Made by a program: the position numbers and the translations under genes
Origin: Herpetosiphonaceae bacterium
GTDB lineage: Bacteria; Chloroflexota; Chloroflexia; Chloroflexales; Kallotenuaceae
Reading direction: 5' to 3'
Assembly (NCBI GenBank): GCA_013821605.1
Contig: JACDGP010000042.1
Span: 1 to 41,025 of the forward strand
Length of the DNA stretch: 41,025 nucleotides
Notes under the pieces: model-generated
What the model was told of the DNA's origin: nothing
Database searches by the model: none
What the model saw: only the letters and a program-made list of their open reading frames with translations
Part shown: one piece after another, positions 2,452 through 26,511 of the stretch
Layout of the letters: every line of letters starts with the position of its first letter
How positions within the stretch are numbered: the first letter of the stretch is position 1

Positions 2452-2523
2452 AAACTTCGCTCCCGATTTCATAAGGTGATGTGCCCCAGTGCTTCAATTG
2501 CAATTTTGTCGGGAGCTCTCGGA

Positions 2524-3924
2524 TTAGTCCCCGTCTCCCTGGGCCTCGACATCGGCAGGCAGCGCAGGTCCAGAGGATGCTGGACAGGTACGCTGAGTCA
2601 GCGGTAGGGGCGGCAACGGAGTTTGGCTGAAGTCTTGCGTGAGCATCAAGCTATTGGATTGGCCGTCCATAGCCGTCAATGCTGGCAACGTCCAGTTATC
2701 CTCCACCATCTTCAACATCGATGAGAAACTATAAAACGTATGGTTGACCCCATGGACCGGCGTAGATTTAGAGTAGGGCGAGATCACAATCGTTGGCACG
2801 CGCATCCCATACATCGTCTGTCCATTAGGACCCTTGGGCGGCGGGACATGGTCAAAGAAACCGCCAAAATCATCCCAGGTCAGGATAATGGCGGTGTTCG
2901 GCCACAAGGCTGGGTTGTTCATGATGGCGTTGATCTGCTGCACCGTCCAATTCTCGCCGGCGCAGACACTATGTGGCGGGTGATCGTTCGTACCTCCTGG
3001 CGAAACCAACCAACTCACGGCCGGCAGCGTACCGTTTTGTGCATCGCTGAGGAAGTTGGTGTAATTGACAACATTCTTCTGCCAGTCGGGACCATTACGA
3101 ATATGATCAATCGCATCATAGGTGGACCAGATATAGCCGGCCTCGCCCTGGCTGGGAGCATAATACTTCCAGGAGACGCCGGCCGTATCAAGTGTATCAC
3201 CCAACGTGGGAAAGTTGAAACATGGAAATACGTTTTCGATCGTGCCGTCGGGGTGACGCTCTTCGACGGTGGTGCCAGGATATGAGTCACAGCCCCAACG
3301 CTGCTTCGAAGCAGTACACGTGGAGAGGTTGGGACAGGCTGGGATACCATCAACATCATCATCTTGTGCTGCGATCGACCAGATATGATTGGCGAAGCTC
3401 GCCCCCAGAATGTTCGAAAAGAAATTGTCGCTCAACGTGAACCGTTGCGCATATTGCCAGTAGTTCGGCAGATCCGCCTGGTACAGCTGGGAGTCGGCTT
3501 CATTGACGCCATGTTGCATAGCTCCCGGTATCAGAACGAAATGATCCATTTTGCCGTTGTCAATTCCCGTAACGGCATTATCACGGCTATGCCCAATGTC
3601 CGAGGACAATTTGTCCGGCTGGTGATTGAGCGTATGGGTCTTGCCATCGGTCCCCCGATAGGTCGTTGCACCATTGGCGCCTGGGAAGGTGCCGAAGTAA
3701 TTATCAAAGGTACGATTTTCCTTATCCATAATCACGATGTGCTGGATCGGCGTCGTGCTGGCATGCGGTTGCTCCAGCGCAGTGGTCAGCGTGGGTGCAG
3801 CCGGCAGGGCGGGTCGTGCCGCCGTGGGCGACCACCCCAGCAGACCCACGACGACTGCAAGGAGCAGTGCGGTCAGGGCTGCGAGACGTGTTACCGGACG
3901 GGTGTAGATGGGGCGGTACTTCAT
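2524..3924 (-). CDS. Secreted phosphoesterase, copy 3
   Basis: 466-residue paralogue of the neighbouring enzymes, starting MKYRPIYTRPVTRL with a Sec signal peptide. It keeps the family metal and catalytic motifs: MDKENRTFDNYFGTFPGANG, SNILGASFANHIWSIA, TWDDFGGFFDHVPPPKGPN and NHTFYSFSSMLKMVEDNW. It differs from its neighbours mainly by a short Cys-containing insertion after DGIPAC (NLSTCTASKQ) and a Gln/Glu-rich loop where the others have a PDYNKPG-like segment. GAGAGA lies upstream of the ATG. The 31-nt gap to copy 4 suggests one transcript running from copy 4 leftward. Confidence 0.92.
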   Translation of the reverse strand: MKYRPIYTRPVTRLAALTALLLAVVVGLLGWSPTAARPALPAAPTLTTALEQPHASTTPIQHIVIMDKENRTFDNYFGTFPGANGATTYRGTDGKTHTLNHQPDKLSSDIGHSRDNAVTGIDNGKMDHFVLIPGAMQHGVNEADSQLYQADLPNYWQYAQRFTLSDNFFSNILGASFANHIWSIAAQDDDVDGIPACPNLSTCTASKQRWGCDSYPGTTVEERHPDGTIENVFPCFNFPTLGDTLDTAGVSWKYYAPSQGEAGYIWSTYDAIDHIRNGPDWQKNVVNYTNFLSDAQNGTLPAVSWLVSPGGTNDHPPHSVCAGENWTVQQINAIMNNPALWPNTAIILTWDDFGGFFDHVPPPKGPNGQTMYGMRVPTIVISPYSKSTPVHGVNHTFYSFSSMLKMVEDNWTLPALTAMDGQSNSLMLTQDFSQTPLPPLPLTQRTCPASSGPALPADVEAQGDGD

Positions 3925-3955
3925 AGCTTCTCTCTCATTTTAATGAGTAAACCTA

Positions 3956-5338
3956 TCAATCGCCATCTTCGTTGGCGTCTGGAGGCTCGGAGCCAGCAAA
4001 CGCTGGGCACGTGCGCTGAGTCAGTGGTAAGGACGGCAACGGCGTTTGGTTAAAGTCCTGGGTAAGCATAAGGCTGTTGGACTGGCCGTCCACATCCGTG
4101 AGCGCTGGCAAGTTCCAATTGTCCTCTACCATTTTCAACATCGATGAGAAAGTGTAGAACGTATGATTGACGTGGTTCCCTTGCGAACTCGAGTAGGGTG
4201 AGATCACCATGGCCGGCACGCGGATCCCGTACATCGTCTGGCCATTGGGACCCTTGGGTGGCGGGACATGGTCATAAAAGCCGCCGAAATCATCCCAGAC
4301 GAGGATAATGGCAGTGTTGGGCCATAAGGCTGGGTTATTCATGATGGCATTGATCTGCTGCACCGTCCAATTCTCGCCATTACAAATACTGGCCGGTGCA
4401 TGCTCGCTCACCTTGGTTGTCTCAACCAACCAGCTCACCGCCGGGAGCGTACCGGCTTGGGCATCCTTGAGGAAATCGGTGTAATTAACGACATTGGTTT
4501 GCCAGTCGGGGCCATTACGAATATGGTTAACCGCATCATAGGTGGACCAGATATAGCCCTGTACACCCTTATTCGGTGCGTAGTACTTCCACGAGACGCC
4601 GGCAGCATCAAGCGAATCACCGAGCGTGGGAAAGTTGAAACACGGAACGACCTGTTCCGTCGTGCCGTCTGGGTGACGCTCTTCGACCGTCACGCCGGTT
4701 GGCGAGTCACAGCCCCACTTCTGGGGCAGACCATGACAACCTGTGCCACACTGCGGAATACCATCGACGTCGTCGTCTTCACCCGCAATCGACCAGATAT
4801 GGTTGGCAAAGCTGCCACCCTTGATGCTCGAAAAGAAATTGTCGGTTAGGGTAAAGTTCTGAGCGTACTGCCAGTAGTTCGGAATATCCGATTGATATAC
4901 CTGAGAGTCGGCTTCATCGACGCCGTTTTGGATAGCGCCCTGCAGTTTGGAGAACTTATTCATTTTGCCGCCATTGATCGCCAAGTCAGCGTCAGCATGA
5001 TTATGAGCAATGTCGCCAGACAAACGGTCCGGTTGGTGATTGAGCGGGTGCACGTTGCCATACACACCCGTAAAGGTCATTGCACCATTGGCATTTGGGA
5101 AGGTGCCAAAGTAGCTATCAAAGCTGCGGTTTTCCTTATCCATGATCACAATATGTTGGATTGGTGTCGTGCTAGCATGCGGCTGCATCAAGGCAGTAGT
5201 TAGCGTTGGTGCCGGCAGCACGGCGGGTCGTGCAGCAGTGGGTGACCACCCCAGCAGACCCACAACGACGACAAGGAGCATGGCGGTCAGGGTCGTGAGA
5301 CGCGTTACCGGGCGCGTGTGGATGGGACGATACTCCAT
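3956..5338 (-). CDS. Secreted phosphoesterase, copy 4 (first in array)
   Basis: 460-residue paralogue and probable promoter-proximal gene of the array. It has a signal peptide, MDKENRSFDSYFGTFPNANG, KGGSFANHIWSIAGEDDDVDG, VWDDFGGFYDHVPPPKG and NHTFYTFSSMLKMVEDNW. A Cys pair in QCGTGCHG replaces the corresponding segment in copies 1-3. I start it at 5338 (MEYRPIHTRPV) because AGGAGAG lies 5 nt upstream and the other copies align there; an open frame continues 19 codons further upstream without support. Function is inferred as extracellular phosphoester hydrolysis, possibly phosphate scavenging. Confidence 0.92.
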   Translation of the reverse strand: MEYRPIHTRPVTRLTTLTAMLLVVVVGLLGWSPTAARPAVLPAPTLTTALMQPHASTTPIQHIVIMDKENRSFDSYFGTFPNANGAMTFTGVYGNVHPLNHQPDRLSGDIAHNHADADLAINGGKMNKFSKLQGAIQNGVDEADSQVYQSDIPNYWQYAQNFTLTDNFFSSIKGGSFANHIWSIAGEDDDVDGIPQCGTGCHGLPQKWGCDSPTGVTVEERHPDGTTEQVVPCFNFPTLGDSLDAAGVSWKYYAPNKGVQGYIWSTYDAVNHIRNGPDWQTNVVNYTDFLKDAQAGTLPAVSWLVETTKVSEHAPASICNGENWTVQQINAIMNNPALWPNTAIILVWDDFGGFYDHVPPPKGPNGQTMYGIRVPAMVISPYSSSQGNHVNHTFYTFSSMLKMVEDNWNLPALTDVDGQSNSLMLTQDFNQTPLPSLPLTQRTCPAFAGSEPPDANEDGD

Positions 5339-5661
5339 AACTTCTCTCCTGGTTACAAGAGTAAATATGGTCGGCACTTCAGCCGAATCCTGCATGCGTT
5401 CCGCATGACATCTCCTAATATCATATAGAACCGTGTAACGACAGCGTTAGCTACTTGTGAATGCCTGTCGCCAACACGTCCCCTTGAAAATGGTGGTTCG
5501 CTTTATAAAAGAAGGAGGAAGGTATTAACCTTCGGAACAATTATATACCGAAACATCGGAAAGTCAAAAAACCGTAGGGCTACCAGTTGCTCAATCGCGA
5601 CAGAAAGATGTCGACGATGGTTTTGACTATAGCATTTATGTACAGAGTTTGAAGATGCCAA
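5339..5661. other. Gene-poor region with leader hairpins upstream of phosphoesterase array
   Basis: Together with the fragment at 5662-5877 this is the longest gene-poor stretch (539 nt). Read on the minus strand it is the leader/promoter region of the phosphoesterase array. Two compact dyads lie close to the gene: TCGGC/GCCGA (5371-5386) and CATGCG/CGCATG with a 3-nt centre (5393-5407). No convincing -35/-10 pair was identified. Short open frames on both strands have no recognisable family features. Confidence 0.45.
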
Positions 5662-15068: not shown

Positions 15069-16361
15069 GAAGTACCCCGCCCACGAGGAGCGGGGCTTCC
15101 GCTTTCATCACGCACTGCTGGCAGTTGCCAGTCTCACATGCGCTCCAGCGGCAGTTTGACTCTCCGTGCTTCCCACGGCGAGTACTCGTAATCCTTCCCG
15201 AAGAATGTTCCGAGCCGCATTCATATCTCGGTCATGCCGTGCACCGCACCTGCTACAGTTCCATGTACGCTCCGAAAGCGGAAGCTGGTGCACAGCACCA
15301 CAGCTGAAACAGGTTTTACTTGACGCAAACCAGCGACTCACCCGGACCACCTGCCGAGACCACCACACCGCTTTGTATTCAAGCATGCGCACAAATGACC
15401 CTAACCCGGCATCCGTGAACGATTTGGCTAGCTTGCTTCTCGCTAACCCCTTGATGTTCAAATCTTCGATGCACAGGGCATCGAACGTACGAATCAGGTT
15501 GATTGATAGTTTATGCAGAAAGTCGGTGCGTTGGTTGCGCACTTTCTGATGCTGACGAGCAAGCGCGAGGCGAGCGCGATTGCGGCTCTTGCTGCCTTTG
15601 GTACAGCGCGACACCTGGCGCTGCAACCGCTTGAGCTTCCGCTCTGAACGACGATACAGGCGTGGCGCAGCAACCTTGGTTCCATCATCCAGCGTCACAA
15701 ACGAGCTGAGACCGACGTCGATCCCGACCGGGGTGCAAGCCGTCCGGACCATGTTCTCAGGTTGCTCAAGATGGCTGACAAAGGTCACGTACCAATTCCC
15801 GGTGGCATCTTGCTTGACCGTCGCCGACGTGACGACACCCTCCAGTGAGCGATGGATTGTCGCCTTGACGAGGCCGACCTTTGGAAGACGTACCTGATTG
15901 TCAATCACGGTGACGTGCTGCGGAATGCGAAAGGTAGGTGACGTCCGCTTCTTGCTCTTGAAGCGTGGAAAGCCCGCTCGCTTTTCAAAGAAGTTCATGA
16001 ACGCACGTTCCAGGTCCATGAGCACCTGTTGCAGTACCTGCGAGTGACACTCCTGCAAGAAGGCTGTCTCTGGTTGCCGTTTGAGTTCCACCAATTCACT
16101 GGCCAAGGCGGTATAGGTCAGACGTTTGCCCGTCGCCTGGTAGGTTTCCTGCTTACGTGCCAAGGCCCAATTCCAGACGAAGCGACGGCAGCCAGCAAAC
16201 TGCCGGAACAGCTGTTCCTGTGCGGCGGTCGGGTTCAAGCGATATTTGAAGGACTTCACCGTTGTCATTGGTTCATCATAGCATAGACTGTGTCAGACAT
16301 AGTCACAAAAGAAAGGTGGTTGCCAGAGGCTCGCCTCATCCCCACCCATAAAGGGATGGGG
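15069..16361 (-). mobile_element. Solitary TnpB element (IS1341-type, IS200/IS605 superfamily)
   Basis: A single tnpB gene with no tnpA is bounded by a hairpin on each side. Downstream end: GAAG-TA-CCCCGC ... GCGGGG-CTTC (15069-15099), a 10-bp stem with a 2-nt bulge. Upstream end: CCCCACCC-ATAAA-GGGATGGGG (16340-16361), a stem with one bulged A, next to TTTT. Subterminal hairpins of this type are the recognition structures of IS200/IS605 ends; exact cleavage points cannot be fixed from one copy. Mobilisation would need a TnpA elsewhere. The coordinates cover the hairpins and gene, so the true ends extend a little further. Confidence 0.75.
15108..16268 (-). CDS. tnpB: RNA-guided nuclease TnpB
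   Basis: 386 residues, full length for TnpB (OrfB of IS605). N-terminal helix-turn-helix/wedge begins KSFKYRLNPTAAQEQLF. The split RuvC active site is complete: D184 in GIDVGLSSF, E268 in LCIEDLNIKGL and D348 in HDRDMNAARNI. A zinc ribbon lies between (C320, C323, C338, C341). The protein should cut DNA next to a short TAM using an omega-RNA made from the element's own 3' end, which would cover the end of this gene and the hairpin at 15069-15099. Intact catalytic residues argue it is active or recently so. Confidence 0.93.
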   Translation of the reverse strand: MTTVKSFKYRLNPTAAQEQLFRQFAGCRRFVWNWALARKQETYQATGKRLTYTALASELVELKRQPETAFLQECHSQVLQQVLMDLERAFMNFFEKRAGFPRFKSKKRTSPTFRIPQHVTVIDNQVRLPKVGLVKATIHRSLEGVVTSATVKQDATGNWYVTFVSHLEQPENMVRTACTPVGIDVGLSSFVTLDDGTKVAAPRLYRRSERKLKRLQRQVSRCTKGSKSRNRARLALARQHQKVRNQRTDFLHKLSINLIRTFDALCIEDLNIKGLARSKLAKSFTDAGLGSFVRMLEYKAVWWSRQVVRVSRWFASSKTCFSCGAVHQLPLSERTWNCSRCGARHDRDMNAARNILREGLRVLAVGSTESQTAAGAHVRLATASSA

Positions 16362-16420
16362 TTTTCGACTCGCTACGTCCCTATAAAACTCCCCACCCGA
16401 TTGAGTAGCGTCCCTGCATC

Positions 16421-16474
16421 CCAATACGTTGCCTACATGATCTTAACAACTTCTAAATACCGGTTGAGTATCCT
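16421..16474 (+). promoter_or_regulatory. Response-regulator-type box array and promoter, copy 1
   Basis: Four half-sites lie at 11-bp spacing: CCAATA (16421), CCTACA (16432), TTAACA (16443), TAAATA (16454); then TATCCT (16469-16474) as the -10 box. TCTTAACAACTTCT (16441-16454) is identical in copies 2 and 3, and the 13-bp spacing to GTATCCTT is the same. There is no good -35 hexamer, as expected for an activator-dependent promoter. It serves the operon at 16522. Confidence 0.7.
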
Positions 16475-16521
16475 TTGGATCATGCAAACGCGGCCACAAA
16501 CCGCACAGAAAGAGGCAGCAT

Positions 16522-16827
16522 ATGTTCCACACAATTGGACGCATCTTGACCATCTTGTTCGTCGCCAGCATTATTGGTGGCGCGACCTATCTCCTCGTAC
16601 AAACGCTGGGCGCGCAATCTGCTGGCACAACCTTGCAGCAGTTTGGTGGCCGGGGCGGTCCTAACAGCCAGAGTGCGTCGCTCATCGGCGGGCTGGGCCA
16701 AATAGTGTTGAACCTTGTGCAGACGGGCGTGATCATCGCTATTGTCTATCGACTTCAGCGCTGGTGGCTCGGTCGGCCGCAGGCACGTACGGCCCAGGCC
16801 CGTCGTGCATCGGTTGCTACACGCTAA
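16522..16827 (+). CDS. Small two-TM membrane protein
   Basis: 101 residues: a membrane segment at ~7-27, a Gly/Arg/Asn-rich linker (QQFGGRGGPNSQSAS), a second membrane segment at ~55-77, and a basic cytoplasmic tail (RRWWLGRPQARTAQARR). GAGG sits 7-8 nt before the ATG. No known family recognised. It is the first gene behind a box-array promoter shared with the two-component operon and is followed 41 nt later by a DUF4405 cytochrome-like gene, so the two products may work together in the membrane. Confidence 0.75.
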   Translation: MFHTIGRILTILFVASIIGGATYLLVQTLGAQSAGTTLQQFGGRGGPNSQSASLIGGLGQIVLNLVQTGVIIAIVYRLQRWWLGRPQARTAQARRASVATR

Positions 16828-16868
16828 TCTCCGCTGACGACGGACCCATAAGGAATAGGAGAACTCCC

Positions 16869-17351
16869 ATGGCCCGCAACGGAAAAACTGACACGGTCAA
16901 GACCAACTGGTATGTCGATCTGGTGATGGCACTTCTCTTTCTCATTGTGTTAGCTCCGACCTTCACCGGGTTGCCGCTGCACGAATGGCTGGGGGTGGCT
17001 GGGGGTGCCGTAATTATTGTGCACCTGTTACTGCACTGGCAATGGATCGTGACAACGACCAAGCGCTTCTTCGGTCAGGTCAACGCCCTGGCGCGCCTGA
17101 ACTACGTCATCAATAGCCTGCTCCTGGTGACGCTGATCGTGGTCATCCTAAGCGGCTTAATGATCTCTGAGACCGTGCTGAAGTTCTTCGGCTTGACCGC
17201 CAGTGGGAGCTCTGCCTGGCGCGGAATTCATAGTACGTCAACGAGTGCGATCCTTGTGCTGTTCGGCGTACATGTCGCAATGCATTGGAAGTGGGTGACT
17301 CATGCCGTGGTCCAATACGTCTTCACACCACTGCGGCAGCCCAACAGCTAA
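16869..17351 (+). CDS. DUF4405-type membrane cytochrome b-like protein
   Basis: 160 residues with four membrane segments (~18-32, 41-60, 79-98, 125-142). Two matching sets of His (H38, H52, H56 and H121, H135, H139) occupy equivalent positions in the helix pairs, the DUF4405 pattern thought to bind b-type heme (HEWLGVAGGAVIIVHLLLHW and GIHSTSTSAILVLFGVHVAMHW). Likely a membrane electron carrier or redox sensor, not an enzyme on its own. The ATG at 16869 is preceded by AGGAG at 7 nt; the longer frame starts inside the upstream gene. Confidence 0.82.
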   Translation: MARNGKTDTVKTNWYVDLVMALLFLIVLAPTFTGLPLHEWLGVAGGAVIIVHLLLHWQWIVTTTKRFFGQVNALARLNYVINSLLLVTLIVVILSGLMISETVLKFFGLTASGSSAWRGIHSTSTSAILVLFGVHVAMHWKWVTHAVVQYVFTPLRQPNS

Positions 17352-17356
17352 CACTT

Positions 17357-18400
17357 CTACTCATCTTCGATCTCCGGATTCGCTGCCATAATGGCTGCCG
17401 CTACCTCCCAGATACGCGGCAGCCATGCTTTGACTTGGTCGCTACGCTGCTGGAGGTCGGCGAATGAGGTGATCTCAAGATCACCGAGCAATTGCCGGTA
17501 ACCGGGATTAAACTGCTCCTGCGTCTCCCGTGATGCATCACAGGCGAATATCTGCTGGCATCTTGAATAGGTAGCAACCATCCAGAAGATCGCCTCACGA
17601 TGGTAGCCCCGCTCGATTAACTCTCGGCTGCCATCAATCGCGACCGGACGGGCAAGATCGCTGATGTCGGCAGCAAAAGAGAACGGCGTTTTGATCACGG
17701 CTTTGGCGGCATCGAATGCAGTCGTGAGCACGGCGAGATGCTGCTCAACCTGCGCCCGGCTCATCTGGGCACACCCCAATAACTCCAACAGGCTTGGGTA
17801 AAAATCCAAGTGCCCATACTCTACCAGGAGATCGTGTGCTGCTAGATACCGCTTCCGCACCGTTGGGTTCTTGAGGCCCGCCACCAGCAGGATGTGCGTC
17901 GTCACGCCCGTCCCGAAGAGCCAGGGAAGCACCTGATCATGAAATGGCGCCGCCGGGTCCAAGCCTTTCAGGTTGTTGAGCACTTTGTCGCGGGCGTGGT
18001 CACAACGCTTGCGGACCCACTGGCGTTTGGCATAGTCTTTGGAGATCGCCGCTTGGAGCTTGGTTAACTGACCGGTTGGATCCGCAATTACGCTCGCCTT
18101 GTGAAAGCTGCCGGCCATGTGGGACTGTCCCAAGATCAACGTAGGCGACTGAAGCTGCTCTTGTGGCAGGTAGGAGACTTCGAGCATAACGTCCCGATAC
18201 ATGAACTTCCCTGGCTTGTTGGGTAAATTGGGGTCGGCAAGGACGACCATGACATCCAGATCGGACGTGGCAGGCAGGACGGCATCATCCGGCAGCCAAT
18301 TCGTCGAACCGTGGAAGAAAGCGCCACAAAAACCCGCTGTCTTCCTCCCTATCTCATTCACCCACTGGCGAGCTACGGCTTTGGCATCTTTGACAATCAT
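17357..18400 (-). CDS. Nucleotidyltransferase-fold protein (aminoglycoside adenylyltransferase-like)
   Basis: 347 residues. The N-terminal third has the pol-beta nucleotidyltransferase signature: GAFFHGSTNW (G31-S32) followed by SDLDVMVVL (D47, D49). The remainder is a helical domain without obvious motif. This family transfers nucleotides to proteins, RNA or antibiotics; the substrate is unknown. The start follows the aldo-keto reductase stop by 2 nt, so both are one transcript. Its stop lies just 5 nt from the convergent DUF4405 gene. Confidence 0.72.
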   Translation of the reverse strand: MIVKDAKAVARQWVNEIGRKTAGFCGAFFHGSTNWLPDDAVLPATSDLDVMVVLADPNLPNKPGKFMYRDVMLEVSYLPQEQLQSPTLILGQSHMAGSFHKASVIADPTGQLTKLQAAISKDYAKRQWVRKRCDHARDKVLNNLKGLDPAAPFHDQVLPWLFGTGVTTHILLVAGLKNPTVRKRYLAAHDLLVEYGHLDFYPSLLELLGCAQMSRAQVEQHLAVLTTAFDAAKAVIKTPFSFAADISDLARPVAIDGSRELIERGYHREAIFWMVATYSRCQQIFACDASRETQEQFNPGYRQLLGDLEITSFADLQQRSDQVKAWLPRIWEVAAAIMAANPEIEDE

Positions 18401-18402
18401 GG

Positions 18403-19344
18403 CTATTGCCCGGAAACAGTGTCGACGCGCGCAAAAAGATCATGAAGCCGTGTGCTTACCGGGGGCGGGAGTGGCGGCAGCAGGATTGCGGCGACGTTCT
18501 CTTCCAGATGGTGTAGATTGCCGGTACCGCTTAGCACGACATGGATGTCCGGCTCGGCTCGGCAAAAACGATAGGCGGCCTCCGGTAAACTATGCACGTC
18601 GTCTATGTCCGTGACGAAACCTAGCGGGTACTCGAGATCCACTGCCGCGCGGTCGATCAGCCCGGCCTGCACTAGTTCGCTAACCATCTGCTGCAGTTTC
18701 GCCGGCTGGCTCAACGCATCACGGACCGCGAACATACATAGCACGCCTGTGTTGTGGCGTTGTGCTGCAGCTAGGACGCGCTCCCGCGCCGACTGGTTGA
18801 GGATGTTATAGCCGACCATGATCACATCCCAAAGATCATCCTGCATCGCGCCTGACAGCATCACGTGGCCCGGATCGCCACCGAACGCCTCGGTAATGCC
18901 GAGGAAGCGGATCTTGCCTTGGTCGCGTAGCCTCAGCATGGCGGGTACTAATTCGGCGACGGCATACTCGTATTGATCGGCCCGTACGCCGTGCAGATGG
19001 TAGATATCGACATAATCGGTCTGGAGCCGGTTCAGACTAGCTTCGAGGCCGCGCGTGAGTTCCGCAGCAGTGATGGCTCTGGTCTGGTCCATGACCGATT
19101 TCTTGGTCGATAGCACAATGCTCTCACGGTCAATGCTCTGCATCGCTTCGCCAATGACTGTCTCGGTACCGTAAGCCTCCGCCGTGTCGATAACGTTGAT
19201 GCCCAGCTCGAGTGCGCGGCGCACGATGACCATCGCTTCGGCGGACGTTGCGCCACTACGCTGGCCAAGCCGGCTATGGCCGCCACCCCCTAGTCCGAGC
19301 ACGCTTGCCCGCAGCCCGGTTCTGCCTAATGTCACATATTCCAT
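18403..19344 (-). CDS. Aldo-keto reductase
   Basis: 313 residues, (beta/alpha)8 NADPH-dependent oxidoreductase acting on aldehydes/ketones. Catalytic tetrad candidates: D53 and Y58 in NVIDTAEAYG, K81 or K82 in VLSTKK, H116/H118 in DIYHLHG. The opening MEYVTLGRTGLRASVLGLGGGG is typical of the family. I use the ATG at 19344: a -35/-10 pair directly upstream places the mRNA start about 2 nt before it, whereas the 20-codon longer frame runs through that promoter. Physiological substrate unknown. Confidence 0.87.
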   Translation of the reverse strand: MEYVTLGRTGLRASVLGLGGGGHSRLGQRSGATSAEAMVIVRRALELGINVIDTAEAYGTETVIGEAMQSIDRESIVLSTKKSVMDQTRAITAAELTRGLEASLNRLQTDYVDIYHLHGVRADQYEYAVAELVPAMLRLRDQGKIRFLGITEAFGGDPGHVMLSGAMQDDLWDVIMVGYNILNQSARERVLAAAQRHNTGVLCMFAVRDALSQPAKLQQMVSELVQAGLIDRAAVDLEYPLGFVTDIDDVHSLPEAAYRFCRAEPDIHVVLSGTGNLHHLEENVAAILLPPLPPPVSTRLHDLFARVDTVSGQ

Positions 19345-19352
19345 AGCAGCCA

Positions 19353-19381
19353 AGTATGAACCATCCCATCTCCCTCCGCAA
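19353..19381 (-). promoter_or_regulatory. Promoter of the aldo-keto reductase operon (leaderless geometry)
   Basis: On the minus strand TTGCGG (19376-19381) and CATACT (19353-19358) are 17 bp apart. The expected start (about 19346) is only ~2 nt before the ATG at 19344. No ribosome site is present. Confidence 0.5.
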
Positions 19382-19463
19382 GACCAAATGATGGCATGCT
19401 CCATGATGCATAAGCATCAAGAAGGCTTCGCTTCGATAGCGCATAGGCCGAAAGGATTAATGA

Positions 19464-20405
19464 ATGCCGCAGCTCCATTTCGGTTGGCGGACGCCGGATT
19501 GGCCCGAGGGCAACCGGACGACGCAGGAGTTCATATCTGACATCCATCGCACGCTCGAAGTTGTGTCCGAGCACTTTGACAGCGCCTGGGTGGCCGATCA
19601 TTTTGTGCCCTGGGACAAGCGCATCCCGGTGCAGACCGATGCCGTCGAATGCATGACGATGCTAGCGTACCTGGCGGCGGCCTATCCGAAGCTGACCTGG
19701 GGTACGATCGTCCTGTGTCAAAGCTACCGTAACCCAGCCTTGTTGGCCAAGATGATCGCCAACCTTTGTGCCTTTGCACCCGGTCGGATCGTCTTCGGTA
19801 TCGGCGCAGGCTGGAAGCAGGAGGAGTATGCCGCCTACGGCTACCCCTGCCCCCGCGCCGCTGTGCGTATCAAACAGCTTGACGAAACCTGTGAGATCGC
19901 GAAGCGTTTATGGACCCACACCCCGGCCACCTTCAAAGGCGAGCATTATCAAATCCATGAGGCCTATCTCAGCCCCAAGCCCGATCCTCTACCTCCGTTC
20001 ATGATCGGCGGTGGCGGCGAGCAGTTGACTTTGCGGGTCGTTGCCAAGCATGCCGATTGGTATAATCTGCCGGGCGGCTCGCGCGAGAACTACCAGCATA
20101 AGCTTGAGGTTTTGCGCGGCCATTGTGCGGCGGTTGGCACCGATTACGACCGGATCATTAAGTCCTGGTCTTGCGATTGTGTCGCGGTCGCCGCGACGGA
20201 CGCCGAGGCTCGGCGTATCGCCGAGGCTAGTACATTTTGTAGTCCTGATAGCACGCTGATTGGCACTCCCGACCACATTGCTGGCGAACTCCAGTCCTGG
20301 GTTGACCTGGGTGTGACCCATTTCCAACTGCGCTTCGCCGATTTCCCGAGCTTGGATGGCATCAACCTATTTGCCCACGAAGTCTTGCCCCGGTTCCGGA
20401 GCTAG
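19464..20405 (+). CDS. Luciferase-like (LLM class) F420/flavin-dependent oxidoreductase
   Basis: 313 residues, TIM-barrel luciferase-like monooxygenase fold. Seen: FDSAWVADHFVPWDKR, a TWGTIVLCQSYRNPALLAKMIANL strand-helix, GRIVFGIGAGWKQEEYAAYG, PPFMIGGGGEQLTLRVVAKHADWYN and a C-terminal VDLGVTHFQLRF. The GIGAGW...EY and GGGGE...LR..A..AD.WN patterns are typical of F420-dependent members, but flavin cannot be excluded. Substrate unknown. AAAGGA precedes the ATG. It is divergent from the aldo-keto reductase. Confidence 0.88.
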   Translation: MPQLHFGWRTPDWPEGNRTTQEFISDIHRTLEVVSEHFDSAWVADHFVPWDKRIPVQTDAVECMTMLAYLAAAYPKLTWGTIVLCQSYRNPALLAKMIANLCAFAPGRIVFGIGAGWKQEEYAAYGYPCPRAAVRIKQLDETCEIAKRLWTHTPATFKGEHYQIHEAYLSPKPDPLPPFMIGGGGEQLTLRVVAKHADWYNLPGGSRENYQHKLEVLRGHCAAVGTDYDRIIKSWSCDCVAVAATDAEARRIAEASTFCSPDSTLIGTPDHIAGELQSWVDLGVTHFQLRFADFPSLDGINLFAHEVLPRFRS

Positions 20406-20425
20406 TCGAGCATCCCGTCTCATCT

Positions 20426-20454
20426 GTTAGCCGGCGTATATCACCGGCTAACAC
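20426..20454 (+). terminator. Hairpin downstream of LLM oxidoreductase
   Basis: Perfect 10-bp stem TGTTAGCCGG / CCGGCTAACA with a 9-nt loop, 20 nt after the LLM stop. No T-run follows, so it may be a Rho-type or stabilising 3' hairpin rather than a classic intrinsic terminator. Confidence 0.5.
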
Positions 20455-20493
20455 GGCTCGCCGCAGCGGTCAATGGCCTCGTCATCCTGCATG

Positions 20494-20547
20494 CCCACAC
20501 GTCCCTTACACGCTCTTAACAACTTCTAAACACGGCATGGGTATCCT
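20494..20547 (+). promoter_or_regulatory. Response-regulator-type box array and promoter, copy 2
   Basis: Half-sites CCCACA (20494), CTTACA (20505), TTAACA (20516), TAAACA (20527) at 11-bp phasing, then TATCCT (20542-20547). This copy has the best second repeat (TAAACA). Sequence similarity to copy 1 extends over ~70 bp including ACGT and TACA elements upstream and GGATCATG after the -10 box. It drives the PHP gene. Confidence 0.7.
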
Positions 20548-20586
20548 TAGGATCATGAGGCGGCTTTCGACCGCAAGGATGATCCG

Positions 20587-21426
20587 ATGAACTGGCTACC
20601 AAAGAACTGCCGTGGGATATCTACGACCACCACCACGTGTCTGAGTGAGCAAAAACTTGACCCCATGCTGCCGGTCAACCGAGCTGATCTGCACGTCCAT
20701 ACATCTGCCAGTGATGGCCTCGCGACTGTCGAGCAAGTCCTTGCGCAGGTCGCCACTGCGGGTAAGCTGCGCGTTGTTGCAATTACTGATCACGATGCGA
20801 TGCTGGATGCGGTACGCGCCCGCCGGCTGCAGCGTGACTTTGGCGTCGAGGTCATTGTCGGCGAAGAAGTGAGCACCCAAGAAGGCCATCTGCTGGCGCT
20901 CTTTATTGACCATGCATTGCCCCCTGGTCGTCCTGCTGCCGAGACCATCGCTGCCATCCATGCTCAGGGTGGCCTATGTATCGCCCCGCATCCATATGAT
21001 TGGCTGATTCCGTCACTTGGTAAGGCTGGACTACGCACACGTTGCGTGCCACATGATGGTGCAGCTGATGGTCGTGATTGGCCCTTTGATGCTATCGAGA
21101 CCTTGAACGCCAGCATTACCTGGCCTGCCTCTGTTGCGAACGCATGGGCCCAATATGTGGCCGTTGAGCTAGGGCTGCCGGTAGTCGGCGGCAGTGATAC
21201 GCACACGCTTGCCACGGTTGGACAGGCCTATACCGAGTTTTGCGGGACTACGGCTGAGGATGTGTACCGTTCGATCAAAGAAGGCACCGTAGCAGCGGTC
21301 GGTCACTGCTGGAGTCCCACGCAGTTTCTTGAGTTCTATCAGTTAACACTGCGCCGGCGTAGCTTAAGCGGGGCGCTCAAGTTAGCTTGTGCGAACGTCA
21401 CGTTGCTGCACAAAGCTGTGGCGTAA
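20587..21426 (+). CDS. PHP-domain metal-dependent phosphoesterase
   Basis: 279 residues. The PHP (polymerase and histidinol phosphatase) metal motifs appear in order: ADLHVHTSASDG (H36, H38), AITDHDA (~66), GEEVST (~95), CIAPHP (~130) and VVGGSDTH (~200). These proteins hydrolyse phosphate groups from nucleotides or small phospho-metabolites in the cytoplasm; the C-terminal ~60 residues carry a basic RRRSLSGALKL segment. The start at 20587 has AAGGAT upstream; a later Met (MLPVNRADLHVHT) is also possible. It lies behind box-array copy 2, so it probably belongs to the two-component regulon. Confidence 0.83.
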   Translation: MNWLPKNCRGISTTTTTCLSEQKLDPMLPVNRADLHVHTSASDGLATVEQVLAQVATAGKLRVVAITDHDAMLDAVRARRLQRDFGVEVIVGEEVSTQEGHLLALFIDHALPPGRPAAETIAAIHAQGGLCIAPHPYDWLIPSLGKAGLRTRCVPHDGAADGRDWPFDAIETLNASITWPASVANAWAQYVAVELGLPVVGGSDTHTLATVGQAYTEFCGTTAEDVYRSIKEGTVAAVGHCWSPTQFLEFYQLTLRRRSLSGALKLACANVTLLHKAVA

Positions 21427-21490
21427 CCGTCATGGCACCCCATCCACAGGACAGTCCTGGTGCTCGCTTGCTGATCTTTAAGTGAAGCTC

Positions 21491-21547
21491 TTGACAAAGA
21501 CATAGCGAAGGTGTATCATCGATATATCGGCATAATTCGATGATACA
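21491..21547 (+). promoter_or_regulatory. Promoter and operator of the PadR regulator gene
   Basis: TTGACA (21491-21496), 17-bp spacer, TATCAT (21514-21519). The -10 box is inside a perfect 11-bp inverted repeat TGTATCATCGA (21512-21522) / TCGATGATACA (21537-21547), separated by 14 bp. Centre-to-centre distance of ~25 bp suggests two DNA faces bound by a PadR dimer or pair of dimers. The layout predicts strong autorepression. Confidence 0.75.
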
Positions 21548-21583
21548 ACGAATGCTTTAAGACAAAGCGAGAGGAAATGGATT

Positions 21584-22450
21584 ATGGATCCAAAAGACAA
21601 AATGTATGGGCGCCGGTTCGGCGGTCGGTGGGCCGGTCGCGGCGGGCCGGGTGGGCGTGGCGGTTGGCCGGAGCAACGTGAGCGTTGGCAAGCAGGTCCG
21701 GAGGGGGAGCGACCAAGTGAGTCCTCGGAGCTGTCAGAGCACCGTGGCCATTGGCGCCGTGGCCGACCGAGTGGTGGACCCGGCGGTGGTCCCGAGCGAC
21801 CTGAAGCCGCCCAGCATCGGCATGAAGGCCGGCCTGAGGGTGGACCCGGACGACCAGAGCGACCGGACCCGCGTGGTGGCTGGGGTGAAGACCGCCTTAG
21901 GGGCGGACCTGGCGGTCCGCTGCATCGGCTGTATGAAGAGTGGGGCCGGCGTGGCGGTCCACGGGCCGGGCGCGGCGATGTTCGCGCTGCAGTCCTTTCC
22001 TTACTGACCGAGAAGCCCTTACACGGCTACGAAATCATCCAGCAGATTACGGCACGTAGCGGTGGTGCGTGGCGTCCGAGTCCCGGATCGGTGTATCCCG
22101 CGCTCCAATTGCTGGAAGATCAGGGACTGATTGCCAGCGAACAGACCGACGGACGGCGCGTCTTCCACCTCACCGACGAAGGACGTGCGCATGTTGAGCA
22201 ACACAAGACTGAGCTGGATGCAGGGTGGTCCGCAGTTGCAAACACGGTGGATGACGCCGTACGAGAAGTGCATGACCTCCTCGGACAGGTTGGTACCGCC
22301 CTCCAGCAGGTCATCCATGCGGGAACCCCTGGTCAAATCACGCAAGCACGTACACTGTTGGTCAACACGCGCCGCCAGCTGTATCGTATCCTCGCTGATG
22401 ACGAGCCCACGGGCAGCGAGCCGGCGACTGGCGATACCATTCACTCCTAG
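21584..22450 (+). CDS. PadR-family transcriptional regulator with Gly/Arg-rich N-terminus
   Basis: 288 residues. Residues 1-~128 are low-complexity (Gly, Arg, Pro, Trp; GRGGPGGRGGW-type), then the PadR winged helix ~130-205 (GDVRAAVLSLLTEKPLHGYEIIQQI, GGAWRPSPGSVYPALQLLEDQGLI, then RRVFHLTDEGRAHVEQH), and a C-terminal helical dimerisation part. PadR proteins usually repress efflux or stress genes and release DNA on binding a small hydrophobic ligand. The ATG has GAGG ~9 nt upstream. It is autoregulated through the dyad in its promoter and lies upstream of the 22575 membrane protein, which has its own regulatory array. Confidence 0.9.
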   Translation: MDPKDKMYGRRFGGRWAGRGGPGGRGGWPEQRERWQAGPEGERPSESSELSEHRGHWRRGRPSGGPGGGPERPEAAQHRHEGRPEGGPGRPERPDPRGGWGEDRLRGGPGGPLHRLYEEWGRRGGPRAGRGDVRAAVLSLLTEKPLHGYEIIQQITARSGGAWRPSPGSVYPALQLLEDQGLIASEQTDGRRVFHLTDEGRAHVEQHKTELDAGWSAVANTVDDAVREVHDLLGQVGTALQQVIHAGTPGQITQARTLLVNTRRQLYRILADDEPTGSEPATGDTIHS

Positions 22451-22471
22451 CACTGGAGACCAGGCCCAATC

Positions 22472-22525
22472 CTCACAATTTCCGCGACAGATCTTCACAA
22501 GTAACTCATAACTGAGCGCTATCCT
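22472..22525 (+). promoter_or_regulatory. Diverged response-regulator-type box array, copy 4
   Basis: At the same register as copies 1-3: CTCACA (22472), a weak slot (CGCGAC, 22483), TTCACA (22494), CTCATA (22505), and TATCCT at 22520-22525. The distance from the central half-site to the -10 box equals that in the other copies, although the sequence is more divergent. It precedes the 22575 gene. Confidence 0.5.
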
Positions 22526-22574
22526 ATATATACGAAGCTTCACAGAAGCAACGGTACATAGGAAGGATACGAAG

Positions 22575-23153
22575 ATGTATGCACGCAGAAATTGGCTAGG
22601 CTATCTGGCGATTGGCTTAGGCCTGGTCGCTCTGGTTGTTAGCCTCAGTGGGCGCATGGACGGACCACGGGGTGGCATGCAAACAGCGGGTGGTTATGGC
22701 AGACGGAACGGTCCGGCGGCAGTCGCACCGGATGTGCAGCCCCCGACAGCAGCAGTGCCGGCAGCGCCTAATGGGGCGCAGGGGAATGCGGGGCAGGGGG
22801 CGGTTAACCCCCGGCTTGGAGCTGGTCGTGGGCCAATCGGAGATGTCGGACGCTCACCGTTCGGCCATCCGTTTGGTGGTGTGGTACCGTTAGTCGGTGG
22901 CCTGTTCGTGATCGGACTTGGTCTCGCATTGTTCGTCGCCCCCGGACGACGCGGTCGCAGGGGCGGTCACCAAGGTGGACCCGGTGCTGGTCAACTTGTG
23001 AGTGGTGAACAGGATTGGCAGTCGGTCGCTGCTGTTTATCCGTCCGCAGCACCGCAGCCCCAACCTGCTGCCCCTGCCGTAGCACCGGCGCCACCGCAAA
23101 CACCACCGGCATCCGCGCACACCGGTGAAACGACGAGGTTGTACGATTTCTAA
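22575..23153 (+). CDS. Two-TM Pro/Ala/Gly-rich membrane protein
   Basis: 192 residues. Basic N-terminus (MYARRNW), membrane segment ~8-25, extracytoplasmic Gly/Pro/Ala/Asn-rich low-complexity region, second membrane segment ~103-121, basic stretch GRRGRRGG, then a Pro/Ala tail with QPQPAAPAVAPAPPQTPP. No family recognised. The ribosome site AGGAAGG is 8 nt before the ATG. It shares with the 16522 product a two-segment design and a GRGG-like linker, and shares a diverged box array. Likely an envelope-stress or scaffold protein. Confidence 0.7.
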   Translation: MYARRNWLGYLAIGLGLVALVVSLSGRMDGPRGGMQTAGGYGRRNGPAAVAPDVQPPTAAVPAAPNGAQGNAGQGAVNPRLGAGRGPIGDVGRSPFGHPFGGVVPLVGGLFVIGLGLALFVAPGRRGRRGGHQGGPGAGQLVSGEQDWQSVAAVYPSAAPQPQPAAPAVAPAPPQTPPASAHTGETTRLYDF

Positions 23154-23202
23154 CGGCGGCTCCGGCGCTGCCCTGTCCTAAAACCTTGATAGGTAGGCTA
23201 TC

Positions 23203-23241
23203 TTGTACTGGCATTAAGCTTAATGCCAGTACAAACGTTTT
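23203..23241 (+). terminator. Long palindromic terminator
   Basis: A perfect 16-bp inverted repeat with no spacer (23203-23218 and 23219-23234; arm ends TTGTACTGG...), folding with AAGC/TTAA at the tip, followed by ACGTTTT (to 23241). It is 50 nt after the 22575 stop and ends that unit before the two-component promoter. Perfect symmetry leaves open a second role as an operator. Confidence 0.65.
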
Positions 23242-23266
23242 AAAGAGTAACCCGACTGCCCAAACC

Positions 23267-23320
23267 CCAACATCTTGTCTAGACGATCTTAACAACTTCT
23301 GAATATCGATGCGGTATCCT
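23267..23320 (+). promoter_or_regulatory. Response-regulator-type box array and promoter, copy 3 (two-component operon)
   Basis: CCAACA (23267), TCTAGA (23278), TTAACA (23289), TGAATA (23300), 11-bp phased, then TATCCT (23315-23320). TCTTAACAACTTCT and the distance to GTATCCTT match copies 1 and 2 exactly. It lies in front of the response regulator gene, implying autoregulation. Confidence 0.7.
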
Positions 23321-23393: not shown

Positions 23394-24080
23394 ATGCCGA
23401 AAACGATATTGGTTGTAGATGATACACGTAGTTTGCGCACTATGGTTCAAAGCTATTTGACCCAGGAAGGCTTTCGTGTCGTGACAGCGGGCGATGGACG
23501 CGAAGGTCTCATGGTCGCGCATCAGGAACACCCTGATCTGATCATTCTTGATTTGATGATGCCCGAGATGGGCGGCTATGAGTTCATGCGCGCTTACAGC
23601 AAAACGGGCGCGGCCCCCATTATTGTACTAACCGCGCGACTCGAAGAAAACGACAAGGTGCTGGGCTTAGAGCTGGGTGCGGACGATTACGTGACCAAGC
23701 CGTTTAGTCCCCGCGAACTCACGGCTCGTGTGCGTGCAGTCTTGCGTCGCGTGAGCAAGGATGCGCCTCAGCAGGACCTCTTGCATGCGGCCAATATCAC
23801 GCTCGACCGTGAAACCCGCGTCGTTACCGTCGGTGATCGGCGCGTTGACCTGACACCCTCCGAGTTCGATATCTTGTCCATGCTCCTGGCTGCACCCGGT
23901 CGCGTTTTCTCGCGCCTAGATTTGCTCGAACGGCTGCAAGGCACGGCCTACGAAGGCTATGAACGCACCATCGACGTACACATTCGTAACTTACGCACGA
24001 AGATCGAGCCCGATCCGCGCAATCCGCGCTATATCGAGACCGTCTTCGGCATTGGGTACCGCTTCGCAGCGGATATATAA
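23394..24080 (+). CDS. OmpR/PhoB-family response regulator
   Basis: 228 residues. Receiver domain 1-~120: D9-D10 acidic pocket, phospho-acceptor D53 in LIILDLMMPE, VLTAR switch Thr, and VTKPFSP Lys. The C-terminal winged helix (~130-228) has LTPSEFDILSMLLAAPGRVFSR, then ERTIDVHIRNLRTKIEPDPRNPRYIETVFGIGYRF, the OmpR/PhoB DNA-binding signature. That class binds direct repeats spaced 11 bp, as found in its own promoter and three neighbouring ones. I start at MPKTILVVDD (23394) because GAGG lies 5 nt upstream; the eight-residue longer frame is unsupported. The kinase begins 4 nt after the stop. Confidence 0.93.
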   Translation: MPKTILVVDDTRSLRTMVQSYLTQEGFRVVTAGDGREGLMVAHQEHPDLIILDLMMPEMGGYEFMRAYSKTGAAPIIVLTARLEENDKVLGLELGADDYVTKPFSPRELTARVRAVLRRVSKDAPQQDLLHAANITLDRETRVVTVGDRRVDLTPSEFDILSMLLAAPGRVFSRLDLLERLQGTAYEGYERTIDVHIRNLRTKIEPDPRNPRYIETVFGIGYRFAADI

Positions 24081-24084
24081 CAGC

Positions 24085-25485
24085 ATGCGCTCTCTCACCC
24101 TCAAACTGACCCTGTCATTCCTCTTCGTCGGCCTCATCGGCGCGGTGTTGGTCGCTTGCTTCGTCGGCCAGCGTACACAAACCGCCTTCTCCCAGTTTGT
24201 CGCTGATCGCGGCCGGAGCGACTTGGTCAATACGCTTGCCCAATACTATGTCGCGCACGGCAGTTGGGATGGTGTAGGCAGCGCTCTGGCGCTTGGGACA
24301 GGGGGCCAGCTTGGCTCCCCTCATTCCCATCTTCCCCTTGAACTGGTTACATCAAGTGGCCACGTCATCTTGAGCGATGGGAACTATCCGGTCGGTGCCT
24401 CCATCTCAGCGATCGAGTTGGCCGATGGCGTGCCGATCAAGGTTAATAACAGCACCGTTGGCGTGCTCGTCAATAGCCCGGGCATGCCCCTGTTGGGGCA
24501 GGGAGCACCGGAGCGAGATTTTCTGTCGCGCATCACCCACGCGATCATCTATGGTGCGGCCGGGGCGACTGTTATCGCCCTCTTGATCGGGATCATCCTT
24601 GCCCGTACCTTGACGCATCCCATCCGCGAGCTAACTACTGCCACGCAGGTGGTGGCAAAAGGGACGCTGGGACAACAGGTGACCGTACGCTCACGCGATG
24701 AATTGGGTGCCTTAGCAGCCTCCTTCAACCGCATGAGTACCGATCTGGCCGACGCACGTACGTTGCGCCAGCAGATGACGGCTGATATTGCCCACGATCT
24801 GCGTACACCGCTGAGTGTGATCCTGGGCTACACGGAGGCTCTGCGTGACGGCAAGTTGCCCGGTACCCAAGAGATTTACGATACGATGTACGATGAGGCG
24901 CAGTTGCTCCAGCACTTAGTCGATGACTTAAGGACGCTCTCGTTAGCTGACGCTGGTGAACTCCCGCTCCGCCGCCAATCTATTGCGCCTCTGGCTCTGC
25001 TGGAACGCGTGGTTGCTTCCCATAAAGTGCAGGCTCAGACCCTGCACATCACGCTTGCACTCCAAGCTGCGCCGCATCTGCCGGAGGTTGAGGTTGACCC
25101 GGAGCGCATGGCCCAGGTGTTGAGCAACCTTGTGAGCAACGCCTTACGCTACACGCCTGCAAACGGCACGATTACGGTTGCCGCAGAAGCCCATGCCAAC
25201 GCTGTACAACTCGCGGTGGCCGATACCGGCGCGGGCATTGCTCCGGAGGAGTTGCCGCACATTTTTGAACGCTTCTACCGAGGCGACGCATCGCGTCAAC
25301 ATGATGGTTCATCTGGCCTGGGGTTGGCGATTGTGAAGGCTCTTGTTGAAGCCCATGGCGGGACGATTGCCGTCACCAGCAGCATGGGCCGAGGCACGAC
25401 CTTTACCATCACCCTGCCCGTCGTGGCCCCTGCGCTCACTCATCATCCTATTACCACACTGCAGCATCAGGAGCATCATGCGTAG
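24085..25485 (+). CDS. Membrane sensor histidine kinase
   Basis: 466 residues. Membrane segment ~9-29, extracytoplasmic sensor loop (~30-155, no recognised ligand domain), second membrane segment ~160-180, HAMP (~181-233; LTHPIRELTTATQVV... ELGALAASFNRM), HisKA with phospho-acceptor H237 in DIAHDLRTPLS, and HATPase_c with NLVSNALRYTP, DTGAGI, FERFYRG, SSGLGLAIVK and GRGTTFTITLP. Autophosphorylates and passes phosphate to the upstream response regulator. The 42-codon N-terminal extension of the frame overlaps the response-regulator gene and is not used; the ATG at 24085 starts the membrane segment. The next gene overlaps by 8 nt. Confidence 0.93.
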   Translation: MRSLTLKLTLSFLFVGLIGAVLVACFVGQRTQTAFSQFVADRGRSDLVNTLAQYYVAHGSWDGVGSALALGTGGQLGSPHSHLPLELVTSSGHVILSDGNYPVGASISAIELADGVPIKVNNSTVGVLVNSPGMPLLGQGAPERDFLSRITHAIIYGAAGATVIALLIGIILARTLTHPIRELTTATQVVAKGTLGQQVTVRSRDELGALAASFNRMSTDLADARTLRQQMTADIAHDLRTPLSVILGYTEALRDGKLPGTQEIYDTMYDEAQLLQHLVDDLRTLSLADAGELPLRRQSIAPLALLERVVASHKVQAQTLHITLALQAAPHLPEVEVDPERMAQVLSNLVSNALRYTPANGTITVAAEAHANAVQLAVADTGAGIAPEELPHIFERFYRGDASRQHDGSSGLGLAIVKALVEAHGGTIAVTSSMGRGTTFTITLPVVAPALTHHPITTLQHQEHHA

Positions 25486-25858
25486 CTGGAGCCGCTGGCT
25501 CCTCTTGCTGGGCTTCGTTGCCGCGCTTGGAGTGACGTTTATCTTTGTCATGCGTGCGGTGGAACACGCGCGACCACTCCGCCAGCGTACCGATCCGGCG
25601 ATCCGTGGCTGGATGACTATCCCTTTTGTCGCTCATAGCTATCACGTGCCACCGTCCGTTCTATACCAGGCGCTCGGCTTGCAGCCCGTGCGCGGCGATC
25701 AGCATATGCTTACGACCATCGCACAGTTGCAGGGCCGTACGGTTTCTGCCGAAGCCACCATTCTACGCCAAGCGGTCACACAGTTCCGTGTATCACCGCC
25801 TAAGCCCAATCAGCGCCGGCCCACCTCTACGCCTACGCCATCGCCGGGGACACCATGA
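25478..25858 (+). CDS. Single-TM protein paired with DedA
   Basis: 126 residues: membrane segment (WLLLLGFVAALGVTFIFVM, ~6-24), then an extracytoplasmic or cytoplasmic domain IPFVAHSYHVPPSVLYQALGL...HMLTTIAQLQGRTVSAEATIL, and a Pro/Thr tail. The HxVPxxxLYxALGL...LxxIAxxxG pattern is, to my knowledge, seen in small proteins next to DedA genes, with a helix-turn-helix-like repeat of unknown role. It overlaps the kinase by 8 nt (CAGGAG site inside the kinase) and the DedA gene by 4 nt, so the four genes are tightly coupled. Confidence 0.72.
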   Translation: MRSWSRWLLLLGFVAALGVTFIFVMRAVEHARPLRQRTDPAIRGWMTIPFVAHSYHVPPSVLYQALGLQPVRGDQHMLTTIAQLQGRTVSAEATILRQAVTQFRVSPPKPNQRRPTSTPTPSPGTP

Positions 25859-26511
25859 CGCTGAGCGAACAATTCCTGGCCGCACTCGTTCAATATGGCC
25901 TGCCCGCCTTGTTTGTCATTGTGCTGGTGTCGTCGGCCGGCGCACCCTTGCCGTCCTCGTTGCTGCTCGTAGCAACAGGCTCCTTGGTCCAACAAGGTCA
26001 GTTCAGCTTCTGGCCAGTCGTCGGGTTGGGTGTTGCTGGCTCCATGCTCGGTGACCATCTTGGCTATGGTCTTGGGCGACTCGGTGGGCGCAAGCTGGCC
26101 GATCGCGTCGCTCGTCTCGTAGGTGGTCAGCGCGGACTCCTGGCCGCCGAGTCAGCAATGCGTCGGTGGGGTGGTCCCAGCATTTTTCTGAGTCGTTGGC
26201 TGGTGACAGCGGTGGGACCTGCCATCAATCTGACCAGCGGTATTGCGCTCGTCTCGTGGTGGAGCTTCTTCCTCTATGACCTCGCCGGCGAGACGGTCTG
26301 GGTCGCTGGCTACCTCGGTATCGGTCGCTACTTCAGTGATCAGGTTGAAGCGCTGACGACACTCCTCGGTGATCTCCGCTGGGCGCTCCTCGCCCTCGCT
26401 ATCGCCGCTTTGCTCGGCTGGCTCCTCTGGCGGCAGCGTCCCCAGCGCGACCGCTCTGCATCTGTACCACAGGCTAATGCTCCATTGCCCATGGCGCAGC
26501 CCGAGGAGTAG
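25855..26511 (+). CDS. DedA-family membrane protein
   Basis: 218 residues, integral membrane protein of the DedA/SNARE-associated (VTT) family, implicated in flipping undecaprenyl phosphate or phospholipids and in envelope resistance. Visible signatures: SAGAPLPSSLLLVATGSLVQQG (half-helix motif), GDHLGYGLGRLGGRK, then FLSRWLVTAVGPAINLTSGI with the conserved RW-x-P-like pattern, and several membrane segments. ATGA overlap with the previous gene. Its location in the two-component operon suggests that the kinase monitors envelope lipid stress (inference). Confidence 0.88.
   Translation: MTLSEQFLAALVQYGLPALFVIVLVSSAGAPLPSSLLLVATGSLVQQGQFSFWPVVGLGVAGSMLGDHLGYGLGRLGGRKLADRVARLVGGQRGLLAAESAMRRWGGPSIFLSRWLVTAVGPAINLTSGIALVSWWSFFLYDLAGETVWVAGYLGIGRYFSDQVEALTTLLGDLRWALLALAIAALLGWLLWRQRPQRDRSASVPQANAPLPMAQPEE

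Follow-up and report, generated by a model that had tools for sequence, protein, structure and literature searches.

The window analysed here is the whole stretch of 41,025 nucleotides from a Herpetosiphonaceae bacterium. It carries the same promoter block several times over, and one copy precedes the gene for a response regulator of the OmpR/PhoB class. The question is whether the block is an operator through which this regulator controls both its own operon and the genes behind the other copies. Judged from the sequence, the array and the adjacent sensor/regulator pair very probably belong together, the array marking genes that the pair switches on at the cell surface. In our main reading, to which we give a probability of about 0.8, a small regulon of extracytoplasmic redox and envelope functions is under an OmpR-class activator that also controls its own operon and is paired with a BaeS-type sensor.

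In a search of the whole window the 14-bp core TCTTAACAACTTCT was found exactly at 16441, 20514 and 23287, and each core is followed by 13 bp and then by GTATCCTT, just as an original prediction made from the bare letters had claimed. With up to two mismatches allowed, the window still holds only these three cores (0.12 expected). The complete array measures 56 bp and consists of four 11-bp units with the consensus TCYNMAYANNT, a 6-bp spacer and a TAnnnT -10 box; array 1 reads TCCCAATACGT TGCCTACATGA TCTTAACAACT TCTAAATACCG GTTGAG TATCCT. Units 3 and 4 are the strongest, and full 8/8 matches to TCYNMAYA are reached by three of the four units in array 1 and by two of four in each of arrays 2, 3 and 4. 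Array 3 had been described as a diverged copy that keeps the register and the TATCCT box, and it does so with unit scores of 8, 5, 8 and 6 out of 8. The 11-bp phasing is real, as the prediction of four repeats at 11-bp steps required: over 42 non-redundant sites, columns 11 positions apart correlate with r = 0.76 and columns 22 apart with 0.67, and no other lag between 4 and 21 exceeds 0.19. The TA...T of the -10 box is invariant among these 42 sites, and a G two bases 5' of the box (-14, where an extended -10 has its G) is kept in 36. A good -35 box is absent from every copy in the window, again as predicted, the best match to TTGACA being 2/6 at any spacing of 15-19 bp; none belongs to the conserved geometry of the 42 sites either. 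Rfam gave no RNA families in the window.

Table 1. Arrays and the genes behind them, inside the window (positions of the window) and elsewhere in the genome (by contig)
Feature	Location	Strand	Remarks
Array 1	16419..16474	+	four 11-bp units, 6-bp spacer, -10 TATCCT at 16469-16474; E 9e-12 (profile R1), 1.4e-9 (profile R3)
Small membrane protein, 101 aa	16522..16827	+	first gene after array 1; no Pfam match
DUF4405 / cytochrome b561-like membrane protein	16869..17351	+	
Array 2	20492..20547	+	four units, spacer, -10 TATCCT
PHP-domain phosphoesterase, CehA/McbA-type metallohydrolase	20587..21426	+	NF038032 88.8 bits, cut-off 80
Array 3, diverged copy	22470..22525	+	four units, spacer, -10 TATCCT; E 2.8e-7 (nine-site profile), 2.2e-5 (42-site profile)
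Gly/Pro-rich membrane protein, 192 aa	22575..23153	+	no Pfam match
Array 4	23265..23320	+	four units, spacer, -10 TATCCT; 5' of regulator operon
OmpR/PhoB-class response regulator, proposed array binder	23394..24080	+	PF00072 2.4e-29, PF00486 8.6e-27
Sensor histidine kinase, BaeS-type periplasmic sensor domain	24085..25485	+	
Small conserved protein	25478..25858	+	YVAHSYHVPP motif
DedA / VTT-domain membrane protein	25855..26511	+	
Two arrays back to back	C108 (L018:7736-7893)		DUF6069 membrane protein; divergently, small membrane protein and TIM-barrel isomerase
Array	C97		5' of membrane protein with haem-binding domain
Array	C234		5' of small membrane protein, ApbE and ferric-reductase-like protein
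Array	C194		5' of Tat/lipoprotein intradiol dioxygenase; Mn catalase next after 160-bp gap
Array	C152		5' of Tat/lipoprotein intradiol dioxygenase

The genome was scanned with a degenerate pattern, then with a profile of nine sites and then with a profile of the 42 non-redundant sites. Eight sites were found by the pattern, and the profile gave exactly ten in the 5.88-Mb genome (E from 2e-11 to 2e-5), the next match standing at 0.35. The window holds four of them and the rest of the genome six. Each of the ten stands shortly 5' of a gene start in the correct direction, with four units and the -10 box at a constant distance. The two back-to-back arrays are about 47 bp apart and serve divergent genes. 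Because the profile was partly built from these same sites, the independent tests are the tenth site, on C152, which was left out of the first profile, together with the relatives and a reversed control. The proposal that a shared promoter array marks a regulon holds, with ten promoters and not the four first listed, and the opposite outcome, an array found everywhere, failed outright, since the array is confined to these ten.

In 60 genomes the nine-site profile gave 81 matches at E<=0.1, ten of them in the genome studied here, against 4 for the same columns reversed. Within 355 kb around the matches the forward matrix scored at least 15 at 64 places and the reversed matrix at none; as these regions had been picked by the profile, only the count for the reversed control is informative there. 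When the class was scanned (158 genomes), sites at E<=0.01 turned up in 49 genomes, all in the same order except for one weak case, and the array is almost absent from the class outside Chloroflexales. Further targets in the relatives are a YceI-like protein, a trypsin-like (HtrA-type) protease and a PMT_2/YkcB-type glycosyltransferase, as well as an acyltransferase, a P-type ATPase and a HlyD/MacB-type exporter.

Which regulator reads the array is indicated by the company that the sites keep. With orthologues of the regulator at 23394 defined by an identity of 58% or more, 41 of the 158 genomes in the class have one. The other genomes with an orthologue contain 69 sites; 25 of these, from 21 genomes, are no more than 4 kb away from it, a proximity whose chance is about 1e-49 under uniform placement. 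Site and regulator occur together in 33 genomes, the regulator only in 8, the site only in 16 and neither in 101 (Fisher p 1e-14 over the 158 genomes, in a test that ignores shared descent). The gene order near the array varies: family f1 has a YceI-like gene and then the regulator, f3 has DUF4405, a small protein, the regulator and the kinase, and the array is nevertheless the operon head in most orthologous loci. In Roseiflexus-type relatives the first gene of the regulator operon behind the array is DUF4405; one relative (G001, L186) has the small YVAHSYHVPP protein and DedA behind an array of their own, and in another (G002, L192) DedA also stands under a separate array. The motif scan of genome and relatives that had been suggested as a check thus returned ten sites here and, across the order, sites conserved beside orthologues of the regulator. 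A direct-repeat array occupies the -35 position of the regulator's own promoter (array 4) and of the orthologous operons; array 4 and this conserved linkage support the predicted autoregulation, in which the adjacent OmpR-class protein would bind its own promoter.

The co-occurrence has exceptions on both sides. An array in genomes without the regulator, which the original prediction had named as evidence against itself, is seen in 16 of the 49 site-bearing genomes, where there is no regulator of at least 58% identity. We regard this as a weakness and not as a refutation, because the assembly of G005, a site-only genome with nine sites, reaches 80% completeness and is split into 1240 contigs, and because a related regulator (49-53% identity) is encoded no more than about 2 kb from a site in at least three others (G046, G053, G059), so that a 23394-type or sister regulator may read the motif there. 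Of the eight genomes with the regulator only, none with a strong site, five have a weaker one that scores 20-27 and precedes the regulator by about 940-1030 bp.

A different OmpR-class regulator, a paralogue, might instead read the arrays, with the 23394 operon merely one of its targets. Half-sites of this class resemble one another, a second group of regulators with 52-54% identity (L206, L213, L217) has sites upstream in relatives, and a paralogue on contig C29 of the same genome (L238) is preceded by a similar phased array of the TCTTCATAATT type. However, in 21 other genomes the sites stay with the 23394 orthologue although the gene neighbourhood has been rearranged, usually as the operon head, and the matrix gives the C29 array a score of only 13, while the four window sites reach 46-70. 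In a tree of 66 regulators the motif-bearing ones cluster mainly in the group of the window regulator, 19 of whose 24 members have the motif, and upstream of regulators with 47-50% identity no site within 4 kb scores above 14. We consider control by a paralogue unlikely, and the second group suggests that the motif may have more than one reader.

The regulator at 23394 has the receiver and winged-helix (Trans_reg_C) domains that the OmpR/PhoB class requires, and the adjoining kinase at 24085 has HAMP, HisKA and HATPase_c domains. The sequence shows the arrays with their number, promoter position, geometry, conservation and linkage to this regulator family; binding by 23394, activation rather than repression, dependence on phosphorylation and the nature of the signal we infer, as follows. 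The kinase would sense through its BaeS-type periplasmic domain and phosphorylate the regulator, which would then bind the four 11-bp direct repeats as two tandem dimers; bound there, it would substitute for the absent -35 box and bring a sigma-70-type RNA polymerase to the fixed -10 box. The ten promoters would be turned on in this way, that of the regulator's own operon included, giving positive feedback. OmpR-class activators commonly stand in for a -35 box. An operator for repression or dual control is decidedly unlikely; the sites do overlap the promoter itself, but a repressed promoter would be expected to have the -35 box that all the window sites lack. The constant distance from core to -10 and the identical core in three window copies might also be read as the promoter of an alternative (ECF-type) sigma factor, with the core as -35 and GTATCCTT as -10. 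That reading was rejected on the four-unit periodicity and is highly improbable: two further units are conserved 5' of any -35, TAnnnT is an ordinary -10 box, a response regulator is encoded by the conserved gene linked to the sites, and no sigma factor is seen in the listed target operons.

Among known systems the repeats had been likened to those of B. subtilis PhoP, whose consensus is TTAACA. The likeness stands in so far as PhoPR is also of the OmpR class, with several 11-bp direct repeats of this type which the unit fits; it goes no further, since the BaeR consensus fits equally, the sensor here is BaeS-like and phosphate-starvation genes are absent among the annotated genes of the regulon. 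In the pho box of E. coli PhoB, too, 11-bp direct repeats take the place of the -35 box, but the PhoB half-site CTGTCATAAAT mismatches the array unit (-2.4 bits). The consensus sequences of CpxR, PhoB, WalR, MtrA and ArcA fit the unit poorly.

The sensor points to BaeSR, the envelope-stress system of E. coli and Salmonella. With a profile built from 56 kinases of Chloroflexales, both orthologues and the nearer paralogues, and E. coli proteins from MG1655, the sensor of kinase 24085 was aligned with that of BaeS along its whole length (hhalign probability 96.4%, E 1.3e-9, residues 4-135 to 8-150), against 4.7% for CpxA, 1.5% for PhoQ, 37.7% for CreC, 0.6% for RstB and 0.1% for PhoR. Searched as a single fragment, the sensor had no useful match among PDB sequences and no score in NCBIfam. 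Over nearly its entire length (5-445 of 466) the kinase matches NCBIfam BaeS_SmeS, at half the cut-off. The array unit matches the BaeR consensus TCTNCANAA (PMC3799227) at 11.0 bits (P 2e-4), and TTAACA does equally well. In E. coli, spy carries TCTNCANAA twice at a step of exactly 11 bp, TCTTCATAATC TCTGCAAAATC, and in mdtA the BaeR box TTTTTCTCCCTTATTGGCTGGCTACACT stands 7 bp before TACACT. The system appears to work like BaeSR, which is likewise autoregulated, with a regulon that faces the membrane. It differs in having four units in place of one box, in unit position 5, which is mostly A here and C in the BaeR half-site, and in its targets, mdtABC and spy not being seen here and cytochrome, ApbE, haem and dioxygenase genes found instead. 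Filing the system as BaeSR was rejected, both proteins falling below the NCBIfam cut-offs (kinase, NF012163 244 bits against 500 and NF007837 239 against 603; regulator, NF007982 191 against 380) and the regulator being no closer to BaeR than to PhoB, RpaB and MtrA, whose models outscore it.

The regulon proteins include a b561-like cytochrome, an ApbE flavin transferase with a ferric-reductase-like protein, a haem-binding protein, secreted intradiol dioxygenases and DedA. From this extracytoplasmic redox and envelope content the input is likely an envelope-acting or redox-active stress, which agrees with the membrane or redox stress function that the gene content had suggested to begin with. 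BaeSR has been linked to indole, metals and tungstate (PMC3160322) and, by work cited in PMC6017853, to tannin resistance; by analogy the signal here is possibly phenolic or a metal, and with dioxygenases in the regulon phenolics are a reasonable candidate inducer. A wider idea, which we put forward tentatively and hold to be somewhat doubtful, is that a BaeS-type sensor with an 11-bp-repeat operator is an old module of Chloroflexota and Proteobacteria that has kept its operator and -10 geometry and had its targets replaced wholesale, here by an extracytoplasmic flavin, haem and dioxygenase set directed against redox-active phenolics.

The main points of the original prediction, the array, the regulon and the linkage to the adjacent regulator, were right. 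The regulon is new, of a kind already known. Our search of the literature, to which the 30 Chloroflexi transcription-factor regulogs of RegPrecise 3.0 did not belong, found no described response-regulator regulon in Chloroflexales, an order for which a clearly bounded two-component regulon can now be given together with its operator. The regulon ties DUF4405, DUF6069, the small membrane proteins and the secreted intradiol dioxygenases, all families of unknown function, to one signal, and the tested profile lets the same regulon be read in relatives, cultured species included.

Some neighbouring features were noted in passing. The C29 paralogue (G000:C29:16500-24500; 50% identity) has phased BaeR-like units, TCTTCATAATT GCTCCATAATT, followed by GACCGG TATCCT, and is possibly a sister system with a shifted half-site. 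In Herpetosiphon-like genomes (L236, L237) the promoter of a second regulator of the group reads TCCTCACAATT TCTCCATAATT GGCTGC TATGCT, in which the stretch TTTCTCCATAATTGGC is nearly the E. coli BaeR box TTTTTCTCCATDATTGGC. Within the window an IS605 OrfB/TnpB-like gene, identified by eye (15108-16268, minus strand), adjoins array 1, and three tandem paralogues at 1069-5395 on the minus strand are secreted phosphoesterase-like proteins, phospholipase C-like by eye. A PadR-family gene at 21584, with a Gly/Arg-rich N-terminus, has its own TTGACA-N17-TATCAT promoter (region 21490-21547); the promoter carries TGTATCATCGA / TCGATGATACA, a perfect inverted repeat of 11 bp whose halves begin at 21512 and 21537 and which is likely an operator for autorepression.
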